In this document: positions 15,709 to 62,495 of the stretch, piece after piece
Layout of the letters: each line of letters starts with the position of its first letter
Numbering within the stretch: the first letter of the stretch is position 1
Origin: Hydrogenothermaceae bacterium
GTDB taxonomy: Bacteria; Aquificota; Aquificia; Aquificales; Hydrogenothermaceae
Direction: 5' to 3'
NCBI GenBank assembly: GCA_026418535.1
Contig: JAOABC010000001.1
Location: 248,001 to 312,000 of the forward strand
DNA: 64,000 nt
Notes under the pieces: generated by a model
The model's database searches: none
What the model was told of the DNA's origin: nothing
The model's input: the letters and a program-made list of their open reading frames with translations, nothing else
Made by a program: the position numbers and the translations under genes

Positions 15709-16365
15709 CTACCTAGATAACTTCTGGGAGCTTTTAAAGAACTCTTCTAGTCTATTTTTTACCTTCCTGTGAAAAGACTGAGCATCCATCTGAGAGAGTA
15801 TCTCTATAGCATCATCCAGACTGTCTACAGCGTATATATGAAAGTTATCTTTCTTAATCTCTGCCAGGGCCTGCTCATCTAGAACCAGATTGTCTATATT
15901 CCTTGAAGTGACTATCACTCCCTGTTTTCCGCTTAATCCCACAACATTACAGACCTTAAAGAAACCTTCAACCTTCTCTTTTATAGCCCCTACAGGTTGT
16001 ATGTTTCCATGTTGGTCTATGGAGCCTATTATGGCTGTATCCTGTCTGATAGGGATTTCACCTATCTCTGAAAGTATAGCAATAGCCTCTGCAGCTGAAG
16101 CACTGTCTCCTTCTACCTCTCCGTACGACTGTTCAAATACAACACTACACGACAAAGTTAGGGGAAAATCTGAACCATATTTTCTACCTATGAACCCTGT
16201 TAGTATAAGCACTCCTTTATCATGGATAGGGCCACTTAATCCAACCTCCCTTTTTATGCCTATTATTCCCTTCTCTCCTATATATGCAGACGCAGTAATT
16301 CTACTTGGTACTCCAAAAGAGATGTCTCTTATGTAGTAAACGGACAGACCGTTTACCTGTCCCAC
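15709..16365 (-). CDS. Intact S16 protease-domain reading frame inside the Lon-like pseudogene
   Basis: The 3' third of the decayed Lon-like gene is still open for 218 codons. It contains the whole S16 peptidase domain: GQVNGLSVY, SRITASAYIG, the catalytic Ser in EGDSAS (Ser88) and the catalytic Lys in KEKVEGFF (Lys131). A GTG at 16365 could start translation, but no ribosome site is evident, and the frame continues upstream to a stop near 16434. Without its AAA motor the fragment is unlikely to be a regulated protease. It is listed separately because it may be annotated or expressed as a protein. Confidence 0.45.
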   Translation of the reverse strand: MGQVNGLSVYYIRDISFGVPSRITASAYIGEKGIIGIKREVGLSGPIHDKGVLILTGFIGRKYGSDFPLTLSCSVVFEQSYGEVEGDSASAAEAIAILSEIGEIPIRQDTAIIGSIDQHGNIQPVGAIKEKVEGFFKVCNVVGLSGKQGVIVTSRNIDNLVLDEQALAEIKKDNFHIYAVDSLDDAIEILSQMDAQSFHRKVKNRLEEFFKSSQKLSR

Positions 16366-17930
16366 TTTTTCTCCTTCTATGTCAACAATTATTTTGCCTT
16401 CTTTAATAAGCTCTACTATCTTCTTTCGATTAGGTTATTTCTGTATTTTCTCTCTTCCAAGACAGTTTTTATATCTTCAGATGTCACCTCTTCAGAAGTT
16501 CACTAATACCATCCGTACTGACCTACTTTAGACCTTCCTCCTCTATCAGTTTTTTTTTATAAACATGGGAAACTTCTGGATATCCTCCTCTTTCACCACT
16601 TTCACTGGATTAAACTCAGCCTTTATCTTGAAAATTCTGCTGAACTCAGGGTCGTATTCTGATAGAAGTTCGTATACAAGATTGTCCCCTATCATCACAA
16701 TCTTTGATTTGAACTCAACTGGTATTGGGTCTATCCCTATGTGAAGGGAGAAGATATCAAAGTTAGAGTTTCCCCCTATTTTTATCTCTTTAGTTATCAC
16801 TGTTTTTTTTGAGTGTTTCCCAGAGGAGGATGTTTTTTAGTATATCCTTCACGTAGAGGACCAGGAACCCTCCCCTTGCCCTGTGTAAGCTTCCTGCAAC
16901 TATGTTCATGTGGTTAGCAAACAGCACTCCCATGTAAGCTTCGTAAAATACATTACCAAAAAGGTTTTTAAAGGATGGGTTTGTCTCGAAGACTACAGGG
17001 GTACCTTTTAAGTTTGAGTTATCTACGATAACGTTAAGCTTAAATAACTTTATGTCTTGCTCTATCGTCTTATTTACTAAAGGATTCTTTTCTGTGATCT
17101 TACACTCTACGAATATGTATATGTTCTCTATGATTTTTCCCTTGTGGTAATGGATAAACTCAAGTGTCTCTTTTTCCTATCTAAACTCCTCCTCTATCTT
17201 GAAGTATATGTTATCAACTAACTGGTTATATACTTTTAGCTTTAGCCCCTTCAACATCTCTTCCAGATATGGTCTATTTCTCTAAGCTCTCTTATATACT
17301 CTCTGAAGGCCTCTTCAAACTCTTCTACATCCTTTTGAAACTTCTCAAACTGTCTATCTGTTAAGGTCTCTACGTTGGGGAATATCTTGCCGTTTATGAT
17401 TGGAGTAAGTTTATACCTGTCGGAGTGATGACCACTCCAAGGTTGTGTTGTAAAGCTCTGTCTCTGAGCTCTTCAAAAATCCTCTCTCTCCTATCTTCTG
17501 CTTGTTTAAGTATCCTTATCTTTTCATCTTCGTATCTCTTATCCTCAAGTATCTTTATACACTCTTCCTTTAACCTCTGGATTATGCTATCTACTTTTAA
17601 GGACAAATATCTTCCAGTTCCTTTCTTTAGGAGTATGTATTTTAGTTTCAGTGGTTCTTCAAAGTTGTGATAGTAGACTATACCTTCTGGAGGTTCCATT
17701 TTCAGGGATGCTTCTTCAAGTTTTAGCTTAGTATACACAGTTCTACCACTTCCATCTGGACCGGCTACAAAGATGTTGTACCCTTCACTTTTCACACTTA
17801 GACCTGTGTTGAATACTTTTTCAACCCTACTTTGTCCGCTGAAGAAGGGAGCAGGTTCAACCTCTCTAGATGACTTTTCCGCTTTTATATCTATCAGGAG
17901 TTCTTCATAGCTTATCTTCTTTACTGCCAT
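15709..17930 (-). pseudogene. Decayed AAA/S16 Lon-like ATP-dependent protease gene
   Basis: The whole 2.2-kb interval reads, in shifting minus-strand frames, as a LonB/YcbZ-like protease with AAA_32 N-terminus. Pieces in order: N-terminal residues with Walker A-like GPDGSGRT (17930-17394); after a frameshift, TPIINGKIFPNVETL and following (to ~17265); after another, a stretch with PVVFETNPSFKNLFG and GSLHRARGGFLVLYVKD, interrupted by a TAG near 17180 (to ~16800); then KIVMIGDNLVYELL (16800-16546); short scraps including an EERKYRNNLIERR-like piece; finally the S16 domain (16435-15709). At least four frameshifts, several stops and an internal loss in the ATPase region make a working full-length product impossible. 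Residues remain well conserved, so decay is recent. Confidence 0.85.
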
Positions 17931-48179: not shown

Positions 48180-48556
48180 CTATCCTCCTTTAATTTCATT
48201 GTAGTTTAAAATATCTATCTCATCTCCTTTCATTGCAAGTACATAAACTCTGTTCCTTGTCAGGTAGCTTAAAACATCCTCCGGCTGGAAAATATTAGAT
48301 TTTCTATAATTTTCAGTCTTTTCTCTTTCAAACCTCTCCTGCCATTCCTTGAACTTTCTATCTTTTTCGGCTCTCTCCTTTTCAAACTTTTCATTCCAAT
48401 TTTTCTTTTCCTATTCTAACTTTTTTCCATCCTATCCTATCTTTTTCTCTCTGAAGATTAGATTTTTACATAGACTTTAGTATCTGTTCAGAAAGTTTAA
48501 GCAGTCTCTCTACCGTTTTTTTCTAAACTTTCTACTCTTTCTTCTAAGTAAGCCAT
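48180..48556 (-). pseudogene. Remnant of a coiled-coil (DUF3782-like) protein gene
   Basis: Read on the minus strand from ATG 48556, the sequence begins MAYLEERVESLEK, then a run of seven A (instead of six) shifts the frame out of TVERLLKLSEQILKS. After stops and further shifts another piece appears, WNEKFEKERAEKDRKFKEW and then NIFQPEDVLSYLTRNRVYVLAMKG, ending in TAG at 48180. The start and coiled-coil style resemble DUF3782/nuclease-like proteins common in thermophiles. Several lesions rule out a product. It overlaps the ferritin-like gene's start region by 1-2 bases only at its end. Confidence 0.65.
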
Positions 48557-48597
48557 ATCTCTCCACTTTTATAAGTATAAGGTACAGAAGACCTTTA

Positions 48598-51158: not shown

Positions 51159-51626
51159 TCAGTGTAGTGGTATGTATGCATAGCCGTTATTCTGGAAGTC
51201 TACAAGTGCTATAAAACCATTCTCTACAAATTCAACAAAGCTGTAGACATTTTTAGGGTTTATCTTCCTTCCCATCATTCCTTCTTTGCACATCACAAAT
51301 TTGACGTTGTAGTTTTTAACAAGGTTAATAAGTCTTGTTTCTATGTCTTTTTGTTTTTCTATAAGTTTAGTGTCGTCTTTGTAGGGAGAATCTTTCAGGT
51401 CTTTCAGGAAGAATCTGTAGGCATCACCGTGTATCACTACTGCTACTTTAAGTTCTTTGAGACTGTTTTTGTAGTACTCTGCTGAGTTTGCTATAGCACC
51501 AAGTAGGTATATCTCAAACCTCTTTAAATCTCCGGTTGTGAGGTTCACAACTGCCTTAGGGTTGTCGTCTGCAAGGGATAGGGAGGATAAAATTAGCAAA
51601 AGTAGAACAACAAAAACCTTTCTCAT
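51159..51626 (-). CDS. Exported DsrE-like protein
   Basis: A 155-residue protein with a signal peptide (1-~19, SLSLADDN). The mature domain has the DsrE/F fold pattern: AVVNLTTGDLKRFEIYLLGAIANSAEYY, then ELKVAVVIHGDAYRFFLKDL and NVKFVMCKEGM with a single Cys in the usual active-site position of DsrE-type sulfur-transfer proteins, then a C-terminal FVENGFIALVDFQNNGYAYIPL. It probably binds sulfur in the periplasm. It lies between SoxH-like and DUF302 genes. Confidence 0.8.
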   Translation of the reverse strand: MRKVFVVLLLLILSSLSLADDNPKAVVNLTTGDLKRFEIYLLGAIANSAEYYKNSLKELKVAVVIHGDAYRFFLKDLKDSPYKDDTKLIEKQKDIETRLINLVKNYNVKFVMCKEGMMGRKINPKNVYSFVEFVENGFIALVDFQNNGYAYIPLH

Positions 51627-51643: not shown

Positions 51644-52561
51644 TTATTCAAAATCTTCCAGGTCAAGGTCGTTGTATATTTTGTATATGTTTGGGTCGTT
51701 AAACACTTGATACGTTACGAAGTTTTTGTAAGGGGAGCTTTGATTTATAAACTCTTTTATCTGGTCTAGGGACTTCCCCTCTTCTTTCAGTTTTTTCACT
51801 GCATCCCTTAGATAGTTTAAGTACCCCAAAGTGAACTCTAAAGCCTTCTTGTCTAAAAGTTCGTTGTGACTTCCTAGTATAACTTTCGGGTTCATCCTTT
51901 GTATATCCTTCAAAACTTTTATCCAGTTTTTTACGGAAGAGCCTTTATCTCCAGCGAAAGGTATCCTACTTAGGTAAACTAGATTTCCCACAAAGAAGAC
52001 ATTTTCTCCTTTTACTAGCACTACTATGTCGTTATTTGTGTGGGCTGGGTTCATCGGGATTATAGATAGGCTGTATTTTCCTATGCTTATATCCTTCGGA
52101 GAAGTTATCTCTACATCTGCCTGTGTTAGTTTTACGTTCTTGTAGATACCTCCAAACCTCTGGTTTGATAGTTCAAGGGTTAATTTACTCTCCGGAGTTT
52201 TGAAAAATTCGTTTAGATTTTTATGGGCTATCACAGTAGCTCCTAATTCCTTAAATGTAGAAACTCCATACCAGTGGTCTGGATGGTAGTGGGTTATTAT
52301 AAGATACTTTACAGGAACTTTTTTCACTTTTTGAAGTTCAGTGTAAAACTCCTTTGACATTTCCGGAGTAGATAGGCTGTCTATCATCGCCCACCCTTCT
52401 TCTGTCAGGATTGCATAAGCGTTAGACATAAAACCCATATTCTCCGGAGAAGGCATAGCATCAACACCCCGGACCATATACATGTTTTTGTAAAACTGCT
52501 TTAATTCCATAGAGAATGCAGTGGAGAAGAGAAAGAGAAATCCAAGAATTATACGAACCAT
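51644..52561 (-). CDS. SoxH-like metallo-beta-lactamase-fold hydrolase, exported
   Basis: A 305-residue protein with a signal peptide (1-~17). The metal motif HYHPDH (His91, His93, Asp95, His96) and His174 (NPAHTNND) are present, as is the late GSHNEL His. The bridging Asp expected in the VGDLVF-type motif is Asn193 (VGNLVY), which would alter or weaken the binuclear site. The RIPFAGDKGSSVKNW segment is as in SoxH proteins of sox clusters. Substrate unknown. It begins after the porin terminator and is followed by the DsrE-like gene. Confidence 0.82.
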   Translation of the reverse strand: MVRIILGFLFLFSTAFSMELKQFYKNMYMVRGVDAMPSPENMGFMSNAYAILTEEGWAMIDSLSTPEMSKEFYTELQKVKKVPVKYLIITHYHPDHWYGVSTFKELGATVIAHKNLNEFFKTPESKLTLELSNQRFGGIYKNVKLTQADVEITSPKDISIGKYSLSIIPMNPAHTNNDIVVLVKGENVFFVGNLVYLSRIPFAGDKGSSVKNWIKVLKDIQRMNPKVILGSHNELLDKKALEFTLGYLNYLRDAVKKLKEEGKSLDQIKEFINQSSPYKNFVTYQVFNDPNIYKIYNDLDLEDFE

Positions 52562-53883: not shown

Positions 53884-54501
53884 TTATTTTGAGATACTAT
53901 CTAGAACTTTTTTTATATCTCTATCTAAATTTCTTAGAGACCTTATAGCTTCAGCATCCGGATTGTCCATATACTTTATAGCTTTACTTGGCCTGAAGGT
54001 ACCTATAACTACCCTTCCATCTTTTTCGTAAGTATAGACCCTTATGGGAAATTGGGAGACTAGTTGAGGATTGTTTTTTAGAACCTTAGAGCATTCCGAT
54101 AGTTTACACACAAGGTAGAGGTTCATATTCTTCCAGAAGTTCTCTACTCCTAGTTCTTGAGCTCCTTTAGATATATGGGAAACGTAGATTATCTTAAAGT
54201 TGCTGTTTTCAAGCTCAGTCCTGAGAAGGATATCTACCTCTTCCGGAAACATGTTTACAGATTTTTCGTAGATATCGGGCATCTCCTCATCTTCAGCTGG
54301 TTCTGCAACAGCAACAGACAGACTTTTTATAATAGACCTCTTTTCCTTGGCTTCTTCTTTTAACTGAACTTTCTCTCTCTTGGGTTCATCATAACCTGTT
54401 CCAAGGTAGTCTCCTGTTTGTAAGGATATGTCCTTTATAGTCCCTCCACAGGAAATAAAAAGTAGACTTCCAGCTAATGTAAACCAGAAAACTCTCTTCA
54501 T
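53884..54501 (-). CDS. DUF302-domain lipoprotein
   Basis: A 205-residue lipoprotein (lipobox LFISC, Cys18). After a charged linker (~35-85) comes a clear DUF302 domain (~85-195): EVDILLRTELENSNFKIIYVSHISKG, NLYLVCKLSECSKVLKNNPQLV, FPIRVYTYEKDGRVVIGTFRPS and a closing helix. The domain has two cysteines (VCKLSEC) spaced like a redox or sulfur-binding pair. It is translated just after soxB and before a porin; DUF302 function is not established. Confidence 0.8.
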   Translation of the reverse strand: MKRVFWFTLAGSLLFISCGGTIKDISLQTGDYLGTGYDEPKREKVQLKEEAKEKRSIIKSLSVAVAEPAEDEEMPDIYEKSVNMFPEEVDILLRTELENSNFKIIYVSHISKGAQELGVENFWKNMNLYLVCKLSECSKVLKNNPQLVSQFPIRVYTYEKDGRVVIGTFRPSKAIKYMDNPDAEAIRSLRNLDRDIKKVLDSISK

Positions 54502-54520: not shown

Positions 54521-56251
54521 TTAACATCCTCCTGTATTATCTGGACAGCCGCATGGATAGTCTACTATCTTCACGTTAGATCTCTGAGGAGGGTTTACCA
54601 CTTTAACTCTTTTTATGTAGTCTATGGTTATGTCGTATACTGGCCTGAGTTTTTTTATGTTCTTGCCAGCTCTGTGCATGTTGCCACCCCATGCTGCCAC
54701 TACGTAGTTTCTATTTGGGTCTAGGTCTTTTCCGTTTACCTTTATGTTGGACAGTCTCTTCCCTGGTTCTCCGTTTATCCTTATCTCATACTCTAAGCCC
54801 AGGGCCCTACTCATATCTCCACCTTGTTGGTAGAGAGGATTAGAGTTAAAGACGTTATCCGCTATATCTTCCAGTATATTTTTCATCTGGCTTCCTGTCA
54901 TCTCAAACTTATAAACATCTGGATAAGTTATGGCGGTCATACTGTAAACGTCGTCTACAGTTATATCATCTCCTGACAGCAGAGTTGTTCCCCAACGATA
55001 ACCAGAATTGAAAACAATCTCACAGTCTGCCTCTTCCTTTATAGCTTCCATTATTACCCTGTCGAATGTAGAGTAGAAGGTGTCTCTCTTGTAGAGAGTG
55101 GTCTGAGTTTTTCCTATTACCTGGGATAGTTCTTTCTCGTAAGGTTCATAGAGTTTGTTTACAAGGTTTTCCACTTCCTTATCCGGTTTTATAAAGTTAG
55201 ATGCTACAGGATAGAGCTTAAAGGCGAAGTTTGTGATCTTCTTATTCTTCACCTCAAGGTCTAGTCTTCCAAGGTATTTTCCATGGCTTCCGGATATAAC
55301 TATGATAGTGTTGTTTACCACTACAGGACTTGGTGCTGGGTCATGAGTATGTCCAGACAGTATAACATCTATACCGTTTACCATCTTCGCTACAGCCTGG
55401 TCTACAGTAAAACCATCGTGAGAGAGAAGGACTACTATATCTGCCCCTTTATTTCTCACTTCCTTAACAAATTTCTGTAACCTCTCTATTTGTATTCCAA
55501 AAGTCCATCCCTCTGTAAACTCCTTCGGGTTGGCTATAGGAGTGTAAGGGAATGAGTTTCCTATCACTGCAACTTTCGTACCACCAACATCCCTTATAGT
55601 GTAAGGCTTGAATATCAGGTCACCCCAGATGTCATCTGCTACGTTCTGAGATATAAACTCAGCTTTTAGGTGTTTGTTTACAAGCTCTAAAACTCTATCT
55701 TTACCGTATGTATACTCCCAGTGTCCAACCATTATATCTACACCAAGGGCATTCTGAGCTTCCACGATCGCTTTAGCCTTCGTGAATAGTCCTACAGCAG
55801 TGCCCTGCCATGTATCTCCAGCGTCCATAAAGAGAACTTTATCACTTCCTCTCTCCGCTTTTATCTGGTTGATTAAGGTTTTTATGTAAGCCACTCCCCC
55901 CATCTTACCGTACTTTTTAGCTAGCTCCTCAAAGGTTATATAGGTATCGAAGTATGCTCTCATACTTTTTGGTTTTATTTTGTAGTAGTCCATAAAGGTC
56001 TGTCCACACAAGAAACCAGGCGTCCCCACAAGCTCCTTAGCTGAGATTAGGTTTGATGGTTCCCTCCAGTATAGAGGCTTTAGGTGAGCATGTAAATCAC
56101 ATATGTGTAGCAGTGTAATATTCCCAACAGGTTTAAACTCGAACAGCTTTTCTGGGTTTAGATTGTTTAACTTTGCAAAAGCATCCTCCGCAGTTAGAGA
56201 AAACCCTGCTATAGCAGCAAGGTGAAAAAGATCCCTTCTTGATATATTCAT
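54521..56251 (-). CDS. soxB: Sulfate thiohydrolase SoxB
   Basis: A 576-residue periplasmic enzyme with a twin-arginine signal (SRRDLF). It removes the terminal sulfone of SoxY-bound thiosulfate as sulfate. The calcineurin-like dimanganese site is intact: LLHICDLHAHL, FMDAGDTWQGTAVG, VGHWEYTYG, LLSHDGF and LSGHTHDPAP. The C-terminal 5'-nucleotidase domain is complete, and a Cys-rich end (DYPCGCPDNTGGC) is unusual. The gene follows the soxA pseudogene by 10 bases. Confidence 0.95.
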   Translation of the reverse strand: MNISRRDLFHLAAIAGFSLTAEDAFAKLNNLNPEKLFEFKPVGNITLLHICDLHAHLKPLYWREPSNLISAKELVGTPGFLCGQTFMDYYKIKPKSMRAYFDTYITFEELAKKYGKMGGVAYIKTLINQIKAERGSDKVLFMDAGDTWQGTAVGLFTKAKAIVEAQNALGVDIMVGHWEYTYGKDRVLELVNKHLKAEFISQNVADDIWGDLIFKPYTIRDVGGTKVAVIGNSFPYTPIANPKEFTEGWTFGIQIERLQKFVKEVRNKGADIVVLLSHDGFTVDQAVAKMVNGIDVILSGHTHDPAPSPVVVNNTIIVISGSHGKYLGRLDLEVKNKKITNFAFKLYPVASNFIKPDKEVENLVNKLYEPYEKELSQVIGKTQTTLYKRDTFYSTFDRVIMEAIKEEADCEIVFNSGYRWGTTLLSGDDITVDDVYSMTAITYPDVYKFEMTGSQMKNILEDIADNVFNSNPLYQQGGDMSRALGLEYEIRINGEPGKRLSNIKVNGKDLDPNRNYVVAAWGGNMHRAGKNIKKLRPVYDITIDYIKRVKVVNPPQRSNVKIVDYPCGCPDNTGGC

Positions 56252-56261
56252 TCCAATCCTC

Positions 56262-56980
56262 CTATCTCACAAGCCCTGGTACTTCTATAGCAGCTCCGTT
56301 AGCAAATGATGTGACGTAAAGCTCAAGAGCGACCATCTCCTTCGAATCTAATGGAAGAACCTTCATCCCAGCTTGAGACATACACTGCTGGAACCTCTAT
56401 TCCATAGTGACAACCCTACTCTAGGTCATCCTATATCCAGGCCAGTGAGCTGCTGCTGTAGTTCCCTTCAAACCATTGTACTCATGCCCTAATGGTGACA
56501 ACCTCTGCATTCTCAGTACTAAACCAGCAGCATTCTCATGACAACTGGAGCAAGCTAAGTTTCTCTTTCCCCTCTTTAACTCAAACACATACTTACCGTA
56601 GTTGTAGTAGTCTTTTACAACCTAATTTGAAAAGGTTTATCTACCCCTTGATTTAGTTTCTGACACATCTGTATTCTCTGCTGTAGAGATATAACAGTGT
56701 TTAGCTTTGGCTCGTACTTCGGATAACTTCCGACCGCCTTCTTTAACTTTTCTTCACTGTGGCAGGAAGCACAAAACTTGTTGGAAATACCCATTGGTCT
56801 ATGGAAAAGAGCTCCACCAACCTCCTGGGCAAAAACTTCTCCTGGGTTTATGCCAGATTGGTAAAGTTTTAAGTCTTCTTCTGATATTGCTTGTCCCGCT
56901 TCATCAGAGAGTGCTAGATCTGACAACACTACTGAGCTAGCTAAAACAAGGCAGAATAATGCATTTCTATTTTTTAGCAT
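56262..56980 (-). pseudogene. soxA: soxA pseudogene (thiosulfate-oxidising cytochrome c subunit)
   Basis: The N-terminal 121 codons (56980-56615) are open: signal peptide, haem motif CASCH, and IQMCQKLNQGVDKPF. The frame is then lost at ~56620; the shifted frame continues as VVKDYYNYGKYVFELKRGKRNLACSSCHENAAG with a second CxxCH, down to HWPGYRMT, then TAG (56421-56423), SRVVTME, TAG (56397-56399), RFQQCMSQAG and the SoxA-like end ALELYVTSFANGAAIEVPGL. The Cys of RFQQCM is the residue that normally carries the active-site cysteine. A frameshift and two stops make a complete SoxA impossible by normal decoding. Confidence 0.88.
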
Positions 56981-57037
56981 AGCTACTCTCCTGAAAATAA
57001 TTTATCAAAGTATGAAGCCTCCATAAGGGGCTTTACT

Positions 57038-57364
57038 TTACACTTTTATATCTACTACTTTTTCTGTTACGTCACCTTTGTTGTCTTTCCACACTATCTT
57101 TAAGGGAGCAGATTTTGTAGCCTTTACGTAGAAGGATATAAATGGGTTTGCACTTACAGATCCAGATACTTCCATAGTGGTAATTTTATCGTCTCCGTAG
57201 AAAACTTCAACGGAAGTTATATGCTCAGCTGCTATGTATTTACCACTTTCCTTGTCCTTCATCAAACCTGTTTCCATTGGGTGCATTATAACGCTATCAA
57301 TCCTTATTAGATCATCTTTTTTATATTCTTTTGGGCTGATCTTTACCATTGCACTTTTTGGCAT
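57038..57364 (-). CDS. soxZ: Sulfur carrier complex subunit SoxZ
   Basis: A 108-residue protein of immunoglobulin-like beta fold, the partner of SoxY. It begins MPKSAMVKISPKEYKKDD and keeps the family pattern VIMHPMETGLMKDKE, the conserved VFYGDDKI and FISFYVKATKSAPLKIVWKDNKG. SoxYZ carries sulfur intermediates in the periplasm. It has no signal peptide of its own, as is usual; it is exported with SoxY. ATG 57364 follows AAGGAGG and lies 28 bases after soxY. Confidence 0.95.
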   Translation of the reverse strand: MPKSAMVKISPKEYKKDDLIRIDSVIMHPMETGLMKDKESGKYIAAEHITSVEVFYGDDKITTMEVSGSVSANPFISFYVKATKSAPLKIVWKDNKGDVTEKVVDIKV

Positions 57365-57391
57365 AACAGTCCTCCTTCTTTTAGTTTAAAA

Positions 57392-57856
57392 TTATCCACA
57401 ACCACCAACGGTTACCTTTACTAACTTTTGAGCTTTAATAAAACTACCATCTGCTAATTCCGCAACAGCAACAACGTTCATAGTTTCAGCTAACCTTACT
57501 CTTGTAGATAGATAAGCTTTTCCGTTAGCAGGAGTAAAGTAGATACTCATGGTCCTTGCGTTGTGGTTTTTTTCTGTCAATACGTGAATAGCTTTGACTT
57601 GTTCTACAGGAAGTTCAACCTCAACTGTTATAGGAACCACAGCACCGTTTTCAGCTATCTCTGGAGCTACCAGTTTCACCTTGTCCGAGTCTTTTACAGA
57701 CTTATCTTGTGTAATCTCTTTTAGGGCATCGGTGTAAGATTTTTTAGGTGATGGATTGTCTATCAACTCTGCTGCAAAACCACCATAAACAACACCGCTG
57801 AGGCTAATACCAGCTGTAGTTACCGCTGCAGTCTTTAGAAAAGTCCTTCTGTCCAT
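57392..57856 (-). CDS. soxY: Sulfur carrier protein SoxY
   Basis: A 154-residue protein with a twin-arginine signal (DRRTFLKTAAVTTAG) and the invariant C-terminal swinging arm ending VGGCG, where the Cys near the end carries the sulfur substrate. The preceding beta domain has VVPITVEVELPVEQVKAIHVL. It should act with SoxZ as the carrier on which SoxB works. ATG 57856 has AGGAGG upstream; soxW is directly before it. Confidence 0.96.
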   Translation of the reverse strand: MDRRTFLKTAAVTTAGISLSGVVYGGFAAELIDNPSPKKSYTDALKEITQDKSVKDSDKVKLVAPEIAENGAVVPITVEVELPVEQVKAIHVLTEKNHNARTMSIYFTPANGKAYLSTRVRLAETMNVVAVAELADGSFIKAQKLVKVTVGGCG

Positions 57857-57866
57857 AAAAACCTCC

Positions 57867-58301
57867 TTACTTCATAAAGTATTCTGTCATACTAATACTA
57901 TTGTAAGCTCCTGTATAAAAATATTCCAGTATCTTTAAAAAGTCTTTCTCTTCCCATGCACCAAACACAGACTTTATAAAAGTGCCGTCTGGCTTGAAGA
58001 AGTAGAACATAGGGGTCCCTGTGAATCCGTACTTTTTCCTAACTTCTATACCTTCTTTACTACACTTCCTGAGTTTAACCGGCACGAAGTTTTTACTCAT
58101 TGTATCTTCCACTCTCTTGCTATCAAAGACCTTAAACTCCATCAGATCACAGTAGTGACAAGTTGGAGAGTGTATGTAAACAAGTATCAGCTTGTTATCC
58201 TTCTTTGCCAACTCAAAAGCTCTGTTGTAGTCCACCCAGTTTATCTCTGCCTTCCCATTGGCAAATAACACAAACAATAGAAGGAAAAGTATCTTTTTCA
58301 C
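57867..58301 (-). CDS. soxW: Thioredoxin-like protein SoxW
   Basis: A 144-residue exported thioredoxin-fold protein (signal peptide 1-~17). The active site is SPTCHYCDLM (CxxC, Cys residues near 49 and 52), in the thioredoxin_7/SoxW context VYIHSPTCHYCDLMEFKVF, with GTPMFYFFKPDGT as the cis-Pro loop. SoxW keeps SoxY or other cysteines reduced. GTG start at 58301; its ribosome site CAGGAG lies inside the 3' end of the soxX pseudogene, so the two were coupled. Confidence 0.85.
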   Translation of the reverse strand: MKKILFLLLFVLFANGKAEINWVDYNRAFELAKKDNKLILVYIHSPTCHYCDLMEFKVFDSKRVEDTMSKNFVPVKLRKCSKEGIEVRKKYGFTGTPMFYFFKPDGTFIKSVFGAWEEKDFLKILEYFYTGAYNSISMTEYFMK

Positions 58302-58305
58302 TTGT

Positions 58306-58654
58306 TTACTCCTGTGTTAGTAGAAATGCTGTTAACTGACAAATTTCTTCAAATGTTAACTGACCTGTGGTTGCCTGAACAGTCATTCTACACATTGACA
58401 TGCCACGCAGTTTCCTTTTGAGACTATGCTGTACACTTCTTTACCTTTCTCGGCTAGTTTTTTAACAACTCTTTGTCTGCAAGGTTACAGTCTGGTGATA
58501 TTGCGTATATTTTTCCTTCCGGTGGAACATCCTTTACAATCATCTCTTTAGCTTGGGGATTCTCTATTACTGCGTCCTGTAAGGTCAGTGCAAAGGCTGA
58601 CATAGACAATACCATCAACCCGCCTACAGTCAACACTTTCTTTACTATCTTCAT
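58306..58654 (-). pseudogene. soxX: soxX pseudogene (cytochrome c subunit)
   Basis: From ATG 58654 a 66-codon frame gives a signal peptide and a SoxX-like N-terminus, ending at a TAG after KELLKN. One base shifted, the sequence continues KKLAEKGKEVYSIVSKGNCVAC, where the haem site ends in CAA, not His, and immediately hits a stop. A third frame then gives the SoxX C-terminus, MTVQATTGQLTFEEICQLTAFLLTQE, ending at 58306. Between CVAC and the C-terminus about 50 residues, including the Met-ligand region, are missing. The gene is thus frameshifted and internally deleted. Confidence 0.85.
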
Positions 58655-58797: not shown

Positions 58798-60072
58798 TTA
58801 TCCAAATAAATCTCTCCATAAACCCTTAGCCCATTCATTGTATCTTTTAACAGTGGATTTTCTCCTTGTGTTATCTTCTCTGTGGGTTGGGATGATTTTT
58901 CCAGAAGACTTTTCTATTCTAAAGCTTGTCTCTGACATTATTGCCTCTTCATCACTTACCATAGAGTAGCATAGAACCATCAGGAGTTCATCCTTAGACT
59001 TCTTTCCTGTTATCTTTTCTGTAATATTGTTTGCCACAATCTTACCTTGCATATGGGCTCCAAAACCGGATTTAGGTAAGAAGGTTCTTGCAGAGTCTCC
59101 TATCACGTATACATCTTTAATTTTTGTTTCAAAGGTAAAAGTGTCTACCTCTACCCATTTTTGACCTGGCTCTAACAGGCCTATCTTTTCCACTATCTTT
59201 GAAGCCTTCATAGGGGGTATCACGTTCGCTAAACTGAACTTAAACTCTCCGTTTGTGGTTTTCACTATCTTTTTTCCATGATCTATAGACTTTACGTATG
59301 TTCCGGTTATATATTCAGCATACCCTTTATACAGTTCGTAGTATGCGTTCATAAATCCTTCAGCATTTATTATAGGTCTCTCGTTTGCATCTATAAAGTA
59401 CAACTTGGCTTTTAGGTTTCTTTTCTTCAGATAGTTCAAGATCACTGCAGCTCTTTCGTAAGGAGCAGGAGGACATCTATAAGGATAGGCTGGAACTGTC
59501 ATAACTATATCTCCACCTTCAAACTCCTCTATCAGCTTTTTTAAGTACAGATGCTCTCCCCCAGGTTTGAAAGCAGGAGGATAAGCCTTATAGAACGCTT
59601 TTTCTTCTTCATTTATATCGTAAGATATGCCGGGGGATAGGATTAAGAAGTCATAGAATACTCTTAAGTTTGGAGTGATAACAACCTTCTTATCCAGGTC
59701 TATATCCTGTACTCTATCGTTTATAACCTCTATACCGTACTTTACAGTCAGGTTATTGTAAGCAAAACACAGTTCTGAGAACTCGTAGAAACCTCCAAGG
59801 TAGTGATTGCTCATCGGACAAGATACAAAAAATGGGTTTTTCTCTATAAGAATAACAGACACTTCTGGATTTTGTTTCTTTATATACTTAGCTGCTGTGA
59901 TACCACCATATCCACCACCAATAACCACCACTTTAGCTTTTTTGTCTGACCTACTCTCTGTGTAGTTTGAAATACCACCAGCTACAGATTGTTCTAGAAA
60001 ACCAGTTGCCACTACAGATGCTGTAGCTAAGAACAAATCCCTCCTGTTAACACTTAATCTGTTCTTTGACAT
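58798..60072 (-). CDS. Flavocytochrome c sulfide dehydrogenase flavoprotein subunit (SoxF/FccB-like), copy 1
   Basis: A 424-residue exported flavoprotein with a twin-arginine signal (VNRRDLF). FAD site VVVIGGGYGGITAAKYI, the redox-active cysteine region YRCPPAPYERAA (~168-179), the second Cys in LCYSMVSDE (~374), and DVYVIGDSARTF near the flavin. It oxidises sulfide or loads polysulfide. A partner c-type cytochrome (FccA-like) is encoded upstream at 62.2 kb. It overlaps the Rieske gene by 26 bases, so both are translated together. Confidence 0.88.
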   Translation of the reverse strand: MSKNRLSVNRRDLFLATASVVATGFLEQSVAGGISNYTESRSDKKAKVVVIGGGYGGITAAKYIKKQNPEVSVILIEKNPFFVSCPMSNHYLGGFYEFSELCFAYNNLTVKYGIEVINDRVQDIDLDKKVVITPNLRVFYDFLILSPGISYDINEEEKAFYKAYPPAFKPGGEHLYLKKLIEEFEGGDIVMTVPAYPYRCPPAPYERAAVILNYLKKRNLKAKLYFIDANERPIINAEGFMNAYYELYKGYAEYITGTYVKSIDHGKKIVKTTNGEFKFSLANVIPPMKASKIVEKIGLLEPGQKWVEVDTFTFETKIKDVYVIGDSARTFLPKSGFGAHMQGKIVANNITEKITGKKSKDELLMVLCYSMVSDEEAIMSETSFRIEKSSGKIIPTHREDNTRRKSTVKRYNEWAKGLWRDLFG

Positions 60073-60763
60073 GTTTTTCTACCTCCATAACAACTGTTTT
60101 ATCCATCTCTTCTTTTGCTTTTTCTAAAGAGCCAAACTGCTCTATCATGTCTGACTTGTAAAGATCAAAGAACTCACTGAACTGGTCTTTACCTATTATA
60201 CCAGTTGCGTAGATACTCCCCCCTTCCATTACTAAGGACACTGCTGCCAAGGGAAACTCTGCTGGCCCCTCAACTATAGATCCACCGTTTATAGGGTCAA
60301 ACACAGATATATGTGCACAGCACTGGATTACTCCGGATTTTCCGGTAATTTCAGACTTTTCTTTCGATGAGTAGTAGTTTAGTAGAGAAAAGTCTTTTGT
60401 TGGATAGCTCCACTGGTGAGGACAGATTGCTGAGTAAGCCACTATACCCTTTTTGGAACCTATACCTCCTGTAAATCTGTAAACACTACCGTTGTTAAGT
60501 TTTATATCCAGTGGCTTTACTTCTCGGCCAGTATTTATTATGTAGCATGGAGTTGACCTGTATGGGTAAAAAAACAGAAGGGCTGTATTAGATTGTATAT
60601 CTGTCTCTTTCAACGGTGTCCCATCTTCCTTAACAAGAAGGGTTTTTTTATACTTTTTAAAATAACTTCCCTCTACAGCCAAAGCATCTTCAAACTTAAA
60701 AAGATTAAACATGCTTCCTACTGCAAATAAAGAACACGTTTTTAGAATATCTCTTCTGTTCAT
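60047..60763 (-). CDS. Rieske [2Fe-2S] protein with Tat signal
   Basis: A 238-residue protein starting MNRRDILKT (twin-arginine signal). The cluster ligands are CPH (Cys114, His116) and CCAH (Cys148, His151), in the CxH...CxxH Rieske order. The loop between them is 31 residues, about twice the usual 15-17, due to an insertion (TKDFSLLNYYSSKEKSEIT). The C-terminal ~70 residues are helical and lack further motifs. Encoded between two FCSD flavoproteins, it is likely an electron carrier of sulfide or sulfur oxidation rather than of the bc1 complex. Confidence 0.85.
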   Translation of the reverse strand: MNRRDILKTCSLFAVGSMFNLFKFEDALAVEGSYFKKYKKTLLVKEDGTPLKETDIQSNTALLFFYPYRSTPCYIINTGREVKPLDIKLNNGSVYRFTGGIGSKKGIVAYSAICPHQWSYPTKDFSLLNYYSSKEKSEITGKSGVIQCCAHISVFDPINGGSIVEGPAEFPLAAVSLVMEGGSIYATGIIGKDQFSEFFDLYKSDMIEQFGSLEKAKEEMDKTVVMEVEKHVKEQIKC

Positions 60764-60850: not shown

Positions 60851-62164
60851 CTACCCCTTCCCCCATGTATCTGCTGCTATATTGTCATACCAGACTTGAG
60901 CGTATACTGCTTCTTTTTGCCTGAACTTCTCATCCATTCCAACTGGACTTACTCCTCCAGAACCTGACACAGCTTCAAACCCCTTATCACTGACTCTAAC
61001 GATGTGAGCAACAGATATTCCATAATCTGGAGAGACTAAACTGTAGCAAGTGTTCACCATGGTTATGTCGTCTATCTTCTGGCCGTTTATAGATGCAACT
61101 ATAGCGTTGGCTACAACTTTAGCTTCAGAGTTTGCAGAGTATCCTGACTTTGGAAGAGGTCCTGCTATACATGAATCTCCTAAGACATAGACATCTTTAG
61201 CTTTAGTAGATTCAAATGTCTTTGCTACTACAGGTGCCCAACCTTTCTCATCTGCAAGTCCAGATTTTAAGACAATCTCTCCAGCCCTCTGGTGTGGGAT
61301 GAAGTTTAAAACGTCAGCTTTAACTTTCTCTCCGGAGGACGTCTCTACAGTCTTTGTTTTAGGATCTATTTTCACAACCTTACCACCAAGGTCAGCCTGA
61401 ACCCACTCTATCATTCCCGGATAAAGAGCATTCCATGCTTCCATAAATAATTTCTGCTTTGCAAATTCATTTTTAGCATCCAAAATTATTATCTTAGATT
61501 TGGGCTTGTCGTTCTTTAGATACCAAGCAACCAGTCCTGCTCTCTCGTAAGGTCCAGGAGGACATCTAAATGGGTTTGGAGGAGCTACCATTACGAATAC
61601 TCCACCGTCTGGCATGGCTTCCAGTTGCTTTCTCAGCACTAATGTCTGCTCTCCAGCTCTCCAAGCATGAGGAATGTCGTTAACCATAGATTCTGAAGCT
61701 CCCTCTATAGCTCCAAAGTTAAAACTTATACCTGGAGAGAGGACTAGTTTATCGTAAGATACAGTTTTGCCATCGTTTAACTTTACTTTTTTTCCAGTAG
61801 TATCTATCTCTACTACAGATCTATGGACCACATTAACACTGTACTTTGACTTCAATACAGAATAATCAAAAGTTATCTCTTCTATCTTTTTAAATCCACC
61901 TATAACTGTGTTACTGAAAGGACAGGTTATAAACTTCTCATTAGGTTCTATCAAAGTAACAGCTATGTCTTTATCTGCTCTTCTGATATACTTGGCTGCT
62001 GTAGCACCACCAAATCCACCACCTACTACCACTACGTGAGCTTTTCCTTTTACTTGTTCTTGAGATAGCATAGAGGACATGCCAAATGCTTTATCTAATC
62101 CTATAAAAGTTGTAGCTCCTGCTACAGCTGTGACTTTCAAAAGTTCTCTTCTTGAAATTCTCAT
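60851..62164 (-). CDS. Flavocytochrome c sulfide dehydrogenase flavoprotein subunit (SoxF/FccB-like), copy 2
   Basis: A 437-residue exported flavoprotein with Tat signal (SRRELLK). FAD motif VVVVGGGFGGATAAKYI (~46-62), TCPFSNTVIGG (first Cys), FRCPPGPYERAG (~198-209) with the disulfide Cys, NTCYSLVSPDYG (~370-381) with the partner Cys, and DVYVLGDSCIAG. It keeps all FCSD catalytic features. The downstream position next to a monohaem cytochrome gene (62184-62495) makes this the likely FccAB pair. It differs enough from copy 1 to be an old paralogue. Confidence 0.9.
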   Translation of the reverse strand: MRISRRELLKVTAVAGATTFIGLDKAFGMSSMLSQEQVKGKAHVVVVGGGFGGATAAKYIRRADKDIAVTLIEPNEKFITCPFSNTVIGGFKKIEEITFDYSVLKSKYSVNVVHRSVVEIDTTGKKVKLNDGKTVSYDKLVLSPGISFNFGAIEGASESMVNDIPHAWRAGEQTLVLRKQLEAMPDGGVFVMVAPPNPFRCPPGPYERAGLVAWYLKNDKPKSKIIILDAKNEFAKQKLFMEAWNALYPGMIEWVQADLGGKVVKIDPKTKTVETSSGEKVKADVLNFIPHQRAGEIVLKSGLADEKGWAPVVAKTFESTKAKDVYVLGDSCIAGPLPKSGYSANSEAKVVANAIVASINGQKIDDITMVNTCYSLVSPDYGISVAHIVRVSDKGFEAVSGSGGVSPVGMDEKFRQKEAVYAQVWYDNIAADTWGKG

Positions 62165-62183: not shown

Positions 62184-62495
62184 TTATTTTAAGGTTGATA
62201 TATATTGAGCTATAGCTGTGATCTCTTCATCAGAGTATCCTTTTACTATTCTGTTCATTATAGTGCCTTTTTTCTTATCCTCTTTATAAGCTCTGAGGTC
62301 CATCTCTAAGACCTTTGCAGGCTTTCCGGCGATAGAGTACCCATTTTTGTTTGCACTTTTTCCTTCTGAACCATGACAACCGAAACAGGTAGTAGCCATA
62401 ACTTCTGCAGATTTTAGCGTGACCTCAGCCTTTGCATGGGCAAAAAATCCAACTGTTAACCCTGCTGCTAACCCCACAGTAACTAGCTTATACAT
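62184..62495 (-). CDS. Monohaem cytochrome c (FccA-like sulfide dehydrogenase cytochrome subunit)
   Basis: A 103-residue exported cytochrome c with a signal peptide (1-~23, ending HAKAE) and one haem site CFGCH (~38-42), with KGTIMNRI (~80-87) giving the probable Met ligand and YSDEEITAIAQYIS the C-terminal helix. ATG 62495 is set by TTAGGAGGTAAAAC; the longer frame upstream runs into the promoter region and is not used. It precedes the FCSD gene by 19 bases and is its probable electron acceptor. Confidence 0.88.
   Translation of the reverse strand: MYKLVTVGLAAGLTVGFFAHAKAEVTLKSAEVMATTCFGCHGSEGKSANKNGYSIAGKPAKVLEMDLRAYKEDKKKGTIMNRIVKGYSDEEITAIAQYISTLK

Follow-up and report, generated by a model that had tools for sequence, protein, structure and literature searches.

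The sox operon in this stretch of DNA raises the question of whether intact soxW, soxY, soxZ and soxB genes, standing beside broken soxX and soxA genes, serve a Sox route that no longer needs SoxAX or are the remains of a recently lost pathway. The window, meaning the whole 64,000-nucleotide stretch that was analysed, covers positions 248001-312000 of contig 11 in a 1.47 Mb assembly of 29 contigs with 99.94% completeness. Based on SoxB, the nearest named relatives were Hydrogenothermaceae isolate SKW173 and Sulfurihydrogenibium MAGs. SKW173 was identified with genome G001 (loci L016 and L047 were 100% identical across 3663 bp), represented by L047 and the sole congener within the genome set. 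On the minus strand, the genes follow the order cytochrome c, flavocytochrome c sulfide dehydrogenase (FCSD) flavoprotein, Rieske-like protein, FCSD flavoprotein, soxX, soxW, soxY, soxZ, soxA, soxB, DUF302, porin, SoxH-like hydrolase and DsrE. This matches the truncated Sox system of Aquificota (SoxXA-YZ-B without SoxCD), as in the LSSB sulfur-turf bacterium, where a cytochrome, FCSD flavoprotein, Rieske, FCSD flavoprotein, soxX, soxY, soxZ, soxA and soxB follow one another (PMC3504083). There, soxX and soxA were reported as genes and in SKW173 both are full-length, whereas here both are pseudogenes.

Lesions in soxX and soxA were called from nucleotide alignments against SKW173 and two Sulfurihydrogenibium MAGs (L048 and L049), all three of which hold an intact soxX. 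The soxX pseudogene (58280-58654, minus strand) starts with ATG at 58654, meets its first out-of-frame stop (frame 1) at 58454-58456 and is spread over three reading frames. A frameshift, a lost haem His and a deletion of about 50 residues had been described from the sequence beforehand, and all three were recovered. The first is a 1-bp deletion near 58470, held in the stretch 58457-58477. The second is a change of the haem-ligand codon from CAC to CAA at 58395-58397, His to Gln, which turns CXXCH into CXXCQ. The third is a 175-bp deletion (about 58 codons) at about 58386/58387 (junction 58378-58394), where 176 bases in SKW173 align with 1 base here and past which the SoxX tail picks up in a different frame. 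With these two deletions and the CXXCQ motif, a SoxX carrying the CXXCH haem site in one piece is absent.

The soxA pseudogene (56262-56980, minus strand) runs from its native start at 56980 to its native stop TAG at 56262-56264 and occupies two reading frames, with the first out-of-frame stop at 56615-56617. The preliminary description was right that the frame is broken; the cause is not a simple frameshift but a frame-shifting 85-bp deletion at about 56631-56633 (junction 56621-56641), the 85 bases being present in SKW173. It had also counted two in-frame TAG codons, and the alignment revealed three: one replacing a conserved Pro codon (56622-56624), one replacing a Gln/Lys codon (56421-56423) and one replacing a conserved Gln codon (56397-56399). 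The first of these, 6-9 bp away from the deletion junction, may stem from the same event. The remnant keeps its two haem motifs as well as FQQCM, the catalytic Cys context; a single-frame SoxA with both haem domains and the catalytic Cys is absent, given the 85-bp deletion and the three TAGs. The earlier assignment of both soxX and soxA as pseudogenes at these positions was confirmed by the alignment with the three relatives; within the assembly, both are genuine pseudogenes.

Expression of the soxA fragments by recoding, with TAG read as an amino acid (Gln), is very improbable. Two of the three soxA TAGs do stand at Gln positions of SKW173, and missense changes in soxA are not raised. However, the first TAG replaces Pro, TAG ends 14 of the 66 ORFs in the window that reach 100 aa or more, and the frame is already shifted by the 85-bp deletion before any of the three TAGs is reached. 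Recoding was rejected on the last two grounds.

Frame breaks in the window are not limited to sox. A LonB/LonC-like AAA protease gene (15709-17930, minus strand) lies in pieces: a Lon_C part, an AAA_32 domain whose two halves are read in different frames, and an N-terminus of the LonC-helical type. A coiled-coil gene (48190-48590, minus strand) carries a frameshift and lacks about 450 bp that are present in the congener, whose homologue is intact with 288 aa (L047:15811-16677). These two genes are what speaks for an artefact of assembly or sequencing, or for a rare allele of one strain among a population most of which keeps soxXA, as the origin of the sox lesions. This explanation is unlikely all the same: base-calling errors do not typically produce an 85-bp and a 175-bp deletion, three TAG substitutions and a His to Gln exchange, and almost all other genes across the 64 kb are uninterrupted. 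The same two genes qualify the preliminary description, in which the sox operon was called otherwise intact; the operon bears this out, but the window as a whole does not. They also weaken its argument that the sox lesions are not due to chance. Joint loss of SoxAX function is itself supported by independent lesions in both partners and the lack of a second copy, and decay of the second subunit is expected once either SoxAX subunit is lost. Because the pseudogenes belong to a wider background in the window, the step from two broken partners to a special rewiring is weakened.

The four remaining sox genes, described as clean from the outset, are all uninterrupted, and SoxB, SoxY and SoxZ were identified above curated NCBIfam cut-offs. 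On the minus strand, as are all genes in this paragraph, the soxW-like thioredoxin gene is an intact 144-aa ORF at 57867-58301 (Thioredoxin_7/Thioredoxin_2) in the same position as in SKW173. The soxY gene (57392-57856) encodes the C-terminal VGGCG arm and scored 160 bits against TIGR04488 (cut-off 125), soxZ (57038-57364) reached 105.9 bits with TIGR04490 (cut-off 76) and the soxB thiosulfohydrolase gene (54521-56251) 823 bits with TIGR04486 (cut-off 550). The SoxYZ carrier with its C-terminal GGCG arm and the SoxB thiosulfohydrolase are both present as intact genes. Further intact genes are a DUF302 lipoprotein-like gene downstream of soxB (53884-54501; PF03625), a SoxH-related hydrolase of the metallo-beta-lactamase fold (51644-52561; PF00753, with TIGR04559 and TIGR04558 below cut-off) and an exported DsrE-family protein (51159-51626; PF02635, E 5e-14). 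FCSD flavoprotein 2 (58798-60072; FCSD_central, FCSD-flav_bind) is intact, as is FCSD flavoprotein 1 (60851-62164), which aligned with its orthologues in SKW173 and L048 and showed weak similarity to NF049943, a type III sulfide quinone reductase (123 bits, cut-off 525). The Rieske-like protein between them (60047-60763) matched PF00355 weakly, with 19.4 bits below the cut-off of 20.3, and holds the same place in the LSSB bacterium (PMC3504083). An intact monohaem cytochrome c (62184-62492), with cytochrome c family matches and CxxCH in its sequence, is the probable FCSD partner.

Synonymous sites between this genome and SKW173 are nearly saturated (pS 0.68-0.81), and despite this the soxA remnant protein is still highly similar. 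Amino-acid changes were polarised with L048 into those found only in this genome and those found only in SKW173. They numbered 14:6 for the soxA remnant (ratio 2.33), 77:32 for soxW, soxY, soxZ and soxB pooled and 234:113 for seven neighbouring genes (ratio 2.07), and the ratios do not differ (Fisher p 0.56 and 1.0, with 0.56 for soxWYZB versus neighbours). On a fixed tree, the branches of this genome were longer for soxW, soxY, soxZ, soxA and soxB, which had suggested relaxed selection over the whole sox operon; this was rejected, as the non-sox neighbours are equally imbalanced. The soxWYZB genes show neither relaxation nor new constraint. The soxA gene was under constraint until recently and the lesions in soxX and soxA are young, because the remnants are almost as conserved as working genes. 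It follows that intact soxYZB genes are uninformative on rewiring; a plain recent loss predicts the same. One observation counts against a simple loss. The soxA remnant has three nonsense codons (56397-56624) without an excess of missense changes, where neutral expectation is about 0.05 nonsense to 0.70 missense, a ratio that is odd for plain neutral decay.

A second soxXA locus had been proposed as one way out and is not present in the 99.94%-complete assembly. The SoxA profile matched only two pieces of the broken soxA in the whole draft assembly. There, PF21342, which covers SoxA/TsdA cytochromes more widely, likewise matched only soxA remnant pieces, with no TsdA or other SoxA/TsdA-type cytochrome, and the SoxX protein of SKW173 as query matched only three pieces of the broken soxX. 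Weak matches to the SoxX profile elsewhere in the genome are other cytochromes, of a kind also found in relatives. DoxD of the thiosulfate:quinone oxidoreductase (TQO) was not found in the assembly. The known entry enzymes SoxAX, TsdA and TQO are missing or broken in this draft, and a second copy outside its 29 contigs retains a small probability.

The reading preferred here, with a probability of about 0.64, is a recent loss of SoxAX. With both subunits inactivated, thiosulfate would no longer be coupled to the SoxY arm and the truncated SoxXA-YZ-B pathway could not start from thiosulfate. The soxW, soxY, soxZ and soxB genes would persist intact mainly because the time for decay has been too short. 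The FCSD pair just upstream would allow sulfide oxidation, most likely the remaining livelihood, and we infer that thiosulfate oxidation has been lost in the living cell with sulfide in its place. Loss of the full Sox system also occurred elsewhere in the same family: the Hydrogenothermaceae isolate Venenivibrio stagnispumantis is without the full SOX pathway (PMC10762115). The full pathway was reported missing there, whereas here remnants of soxX and soxA are visible and soxYZB are intact. The other pseudogenes of the window and a deletion fusion of soxA and soxB in genome G055 also favour a recent loss. Under a recent loss, the locus would catch a respiratory pathway at an early stage of being taken apart, beginning with its entry enzyme, and with an intact congener alongside.

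Alternatively, SoxYZ might be loaded without SoxAX by FCSD polysulfide or persulfide, by sulfite or by a DsrE/rhodanese carrier, with SoxB hydrolysing the sulfonated SoxY and selection keeping soxWYZB. Intact soxYZB and the nearby DsrE and FCSD genes would fit such a rewired pathway, and SoxB acting with TsdA, instead of SoxAX, has been proposed for a thiosulfate to S0 route in Erythrobacter flavus 21-3 (PMC9426585). Compared with that strain, the only cytochrome of the TsdA/SoxA type here is the broken soxA. DoxD is lacking as well, and a route to SoxY-S-SO3 that bypasses SoxAX is hypothetical. The lesions are too young for the retention of soxYZB to be meaningful. The rewired pathway is therefore improbable in this genome, and the SoxAX-independent route put forward in the preliminary description is unsupported by it, the soxWYZB genes being no more constrained or changed than their neighbours. 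No treatment of SoxAX-independent Sox was found in the open literature searched. Thioalkalivibrio was rejected as a precedent, since soxAX is present in 75 of 75 strains (PMC6382920).

A case that looks stable emerged from the phylum. Among 136 Aquificota genomes scanned, SoxB was detected in 82 and SoxA in 77 at the thresholds used. The clear exception was genus g16, in which all four soxB-bearing genomes (G053, G085, G086 and G087) hold a full-length SoxB and no SoxA. Their soxW-soxY-soxZ-soxB clusters lie at L063 5712-10253, L066 4654-9887, L067 5083-9325 and L068 1791-5288. SoxX was not found in G053, the only g16 genome covered by the SoxX profile in the scan of relatives, and no remnants were seen in the G053 cluster. 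The order in G053 and G085 is dsrE-soxW-soxY-(small Cys-rich gene)-soxZ-soxB-DUF302-like. The cluster of G086 is alike except that the small Cys-rich gene was not detected, and dsrE, present in the other three genomes, was not found within the 5.3-kb contig of G087. With dN 0.024 and dS 0.91 for soxB and dN 0.033 and dS 0.52 for soxY, the g16 cluster is under purifying selection, and the SoxY arm VGGCG was invariant in the three g16 genomes read. The genus thus differs from the genome studied here, where SoxA is broken rather than absent, in the remnant-free cluster of G053, in its purifying selection and in DoxD (TQO), which is present in all four genomes.

The G053 assembly comprises 1,559,514 bp in one contig and is presumably Hydrogenobaculum sp. 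Y04AAS1. Genus g16 is probably Hydrogenobaculum; among Yellowstone Aquificales, tqoAB was reported only for Hydrogenobaculum-like populations (PMC3665934). The small protein encoded between soxY and soxZ in G053 (L063 8608-8913) and G085 (L066 8241-8561) is exported and rich in Cys, Met and His, a possible metal or sulfur carrier. A DUF302-like gene stands behind soxB in g16 as it does in the window.

Four genomes that keep soxW-soxY-soxZ-soxB without SoxA, at dN well below dS, speak for a rewired pathway. With a sox cluster in another genus that looks stable without SoxAX, the YZB genes need not have been kept passively. A Sox system without SoxAX may operate in g16 and perhaps later in the present lineage, SoxYZ receiving sulfur from a non-haem source (FCSD polysulfide, DsrE/rhodanese or sulfite) and SoxB releasing sulfate, in which case this genome would represent the first step; the proposal as a whole is doubtful. 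A SoxAX-independent route is a real and testable question for g16, to which this locus alone lends no support. If the g16 cluster is active, the accepted first Sox step would not always be required, and soxB and soxYZ as metagenomic markers would overcall thiosulfate oxidation.

A further case was found in genome G055, where a deletion has joined about 50 N-terminal residues of SoxA, in frame, to the C-terminal portion of SoxB (L064 1727-2569, minus strand) and soxW, soxY and soxZ are intact. Loss of SoxA(X) with soxYZ kept has occurred at least three times, in this genome, in g16 and in G055, and the g16 case looks stable. As a sink for SoxY sulfane sulfur, sHdr is unproven in this genome: the HdrB profile gave a strong match inside a fumarate-reductase-like cluster and weak matches to another protein, without the expected pair. 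With the same profile, no sHdrB1/B2-like pair was detected in the Hydrogenothermaceae genomes G000, G001 and G008, and such a pair, about 3.8 kb apart, was present in both G053 and G055.
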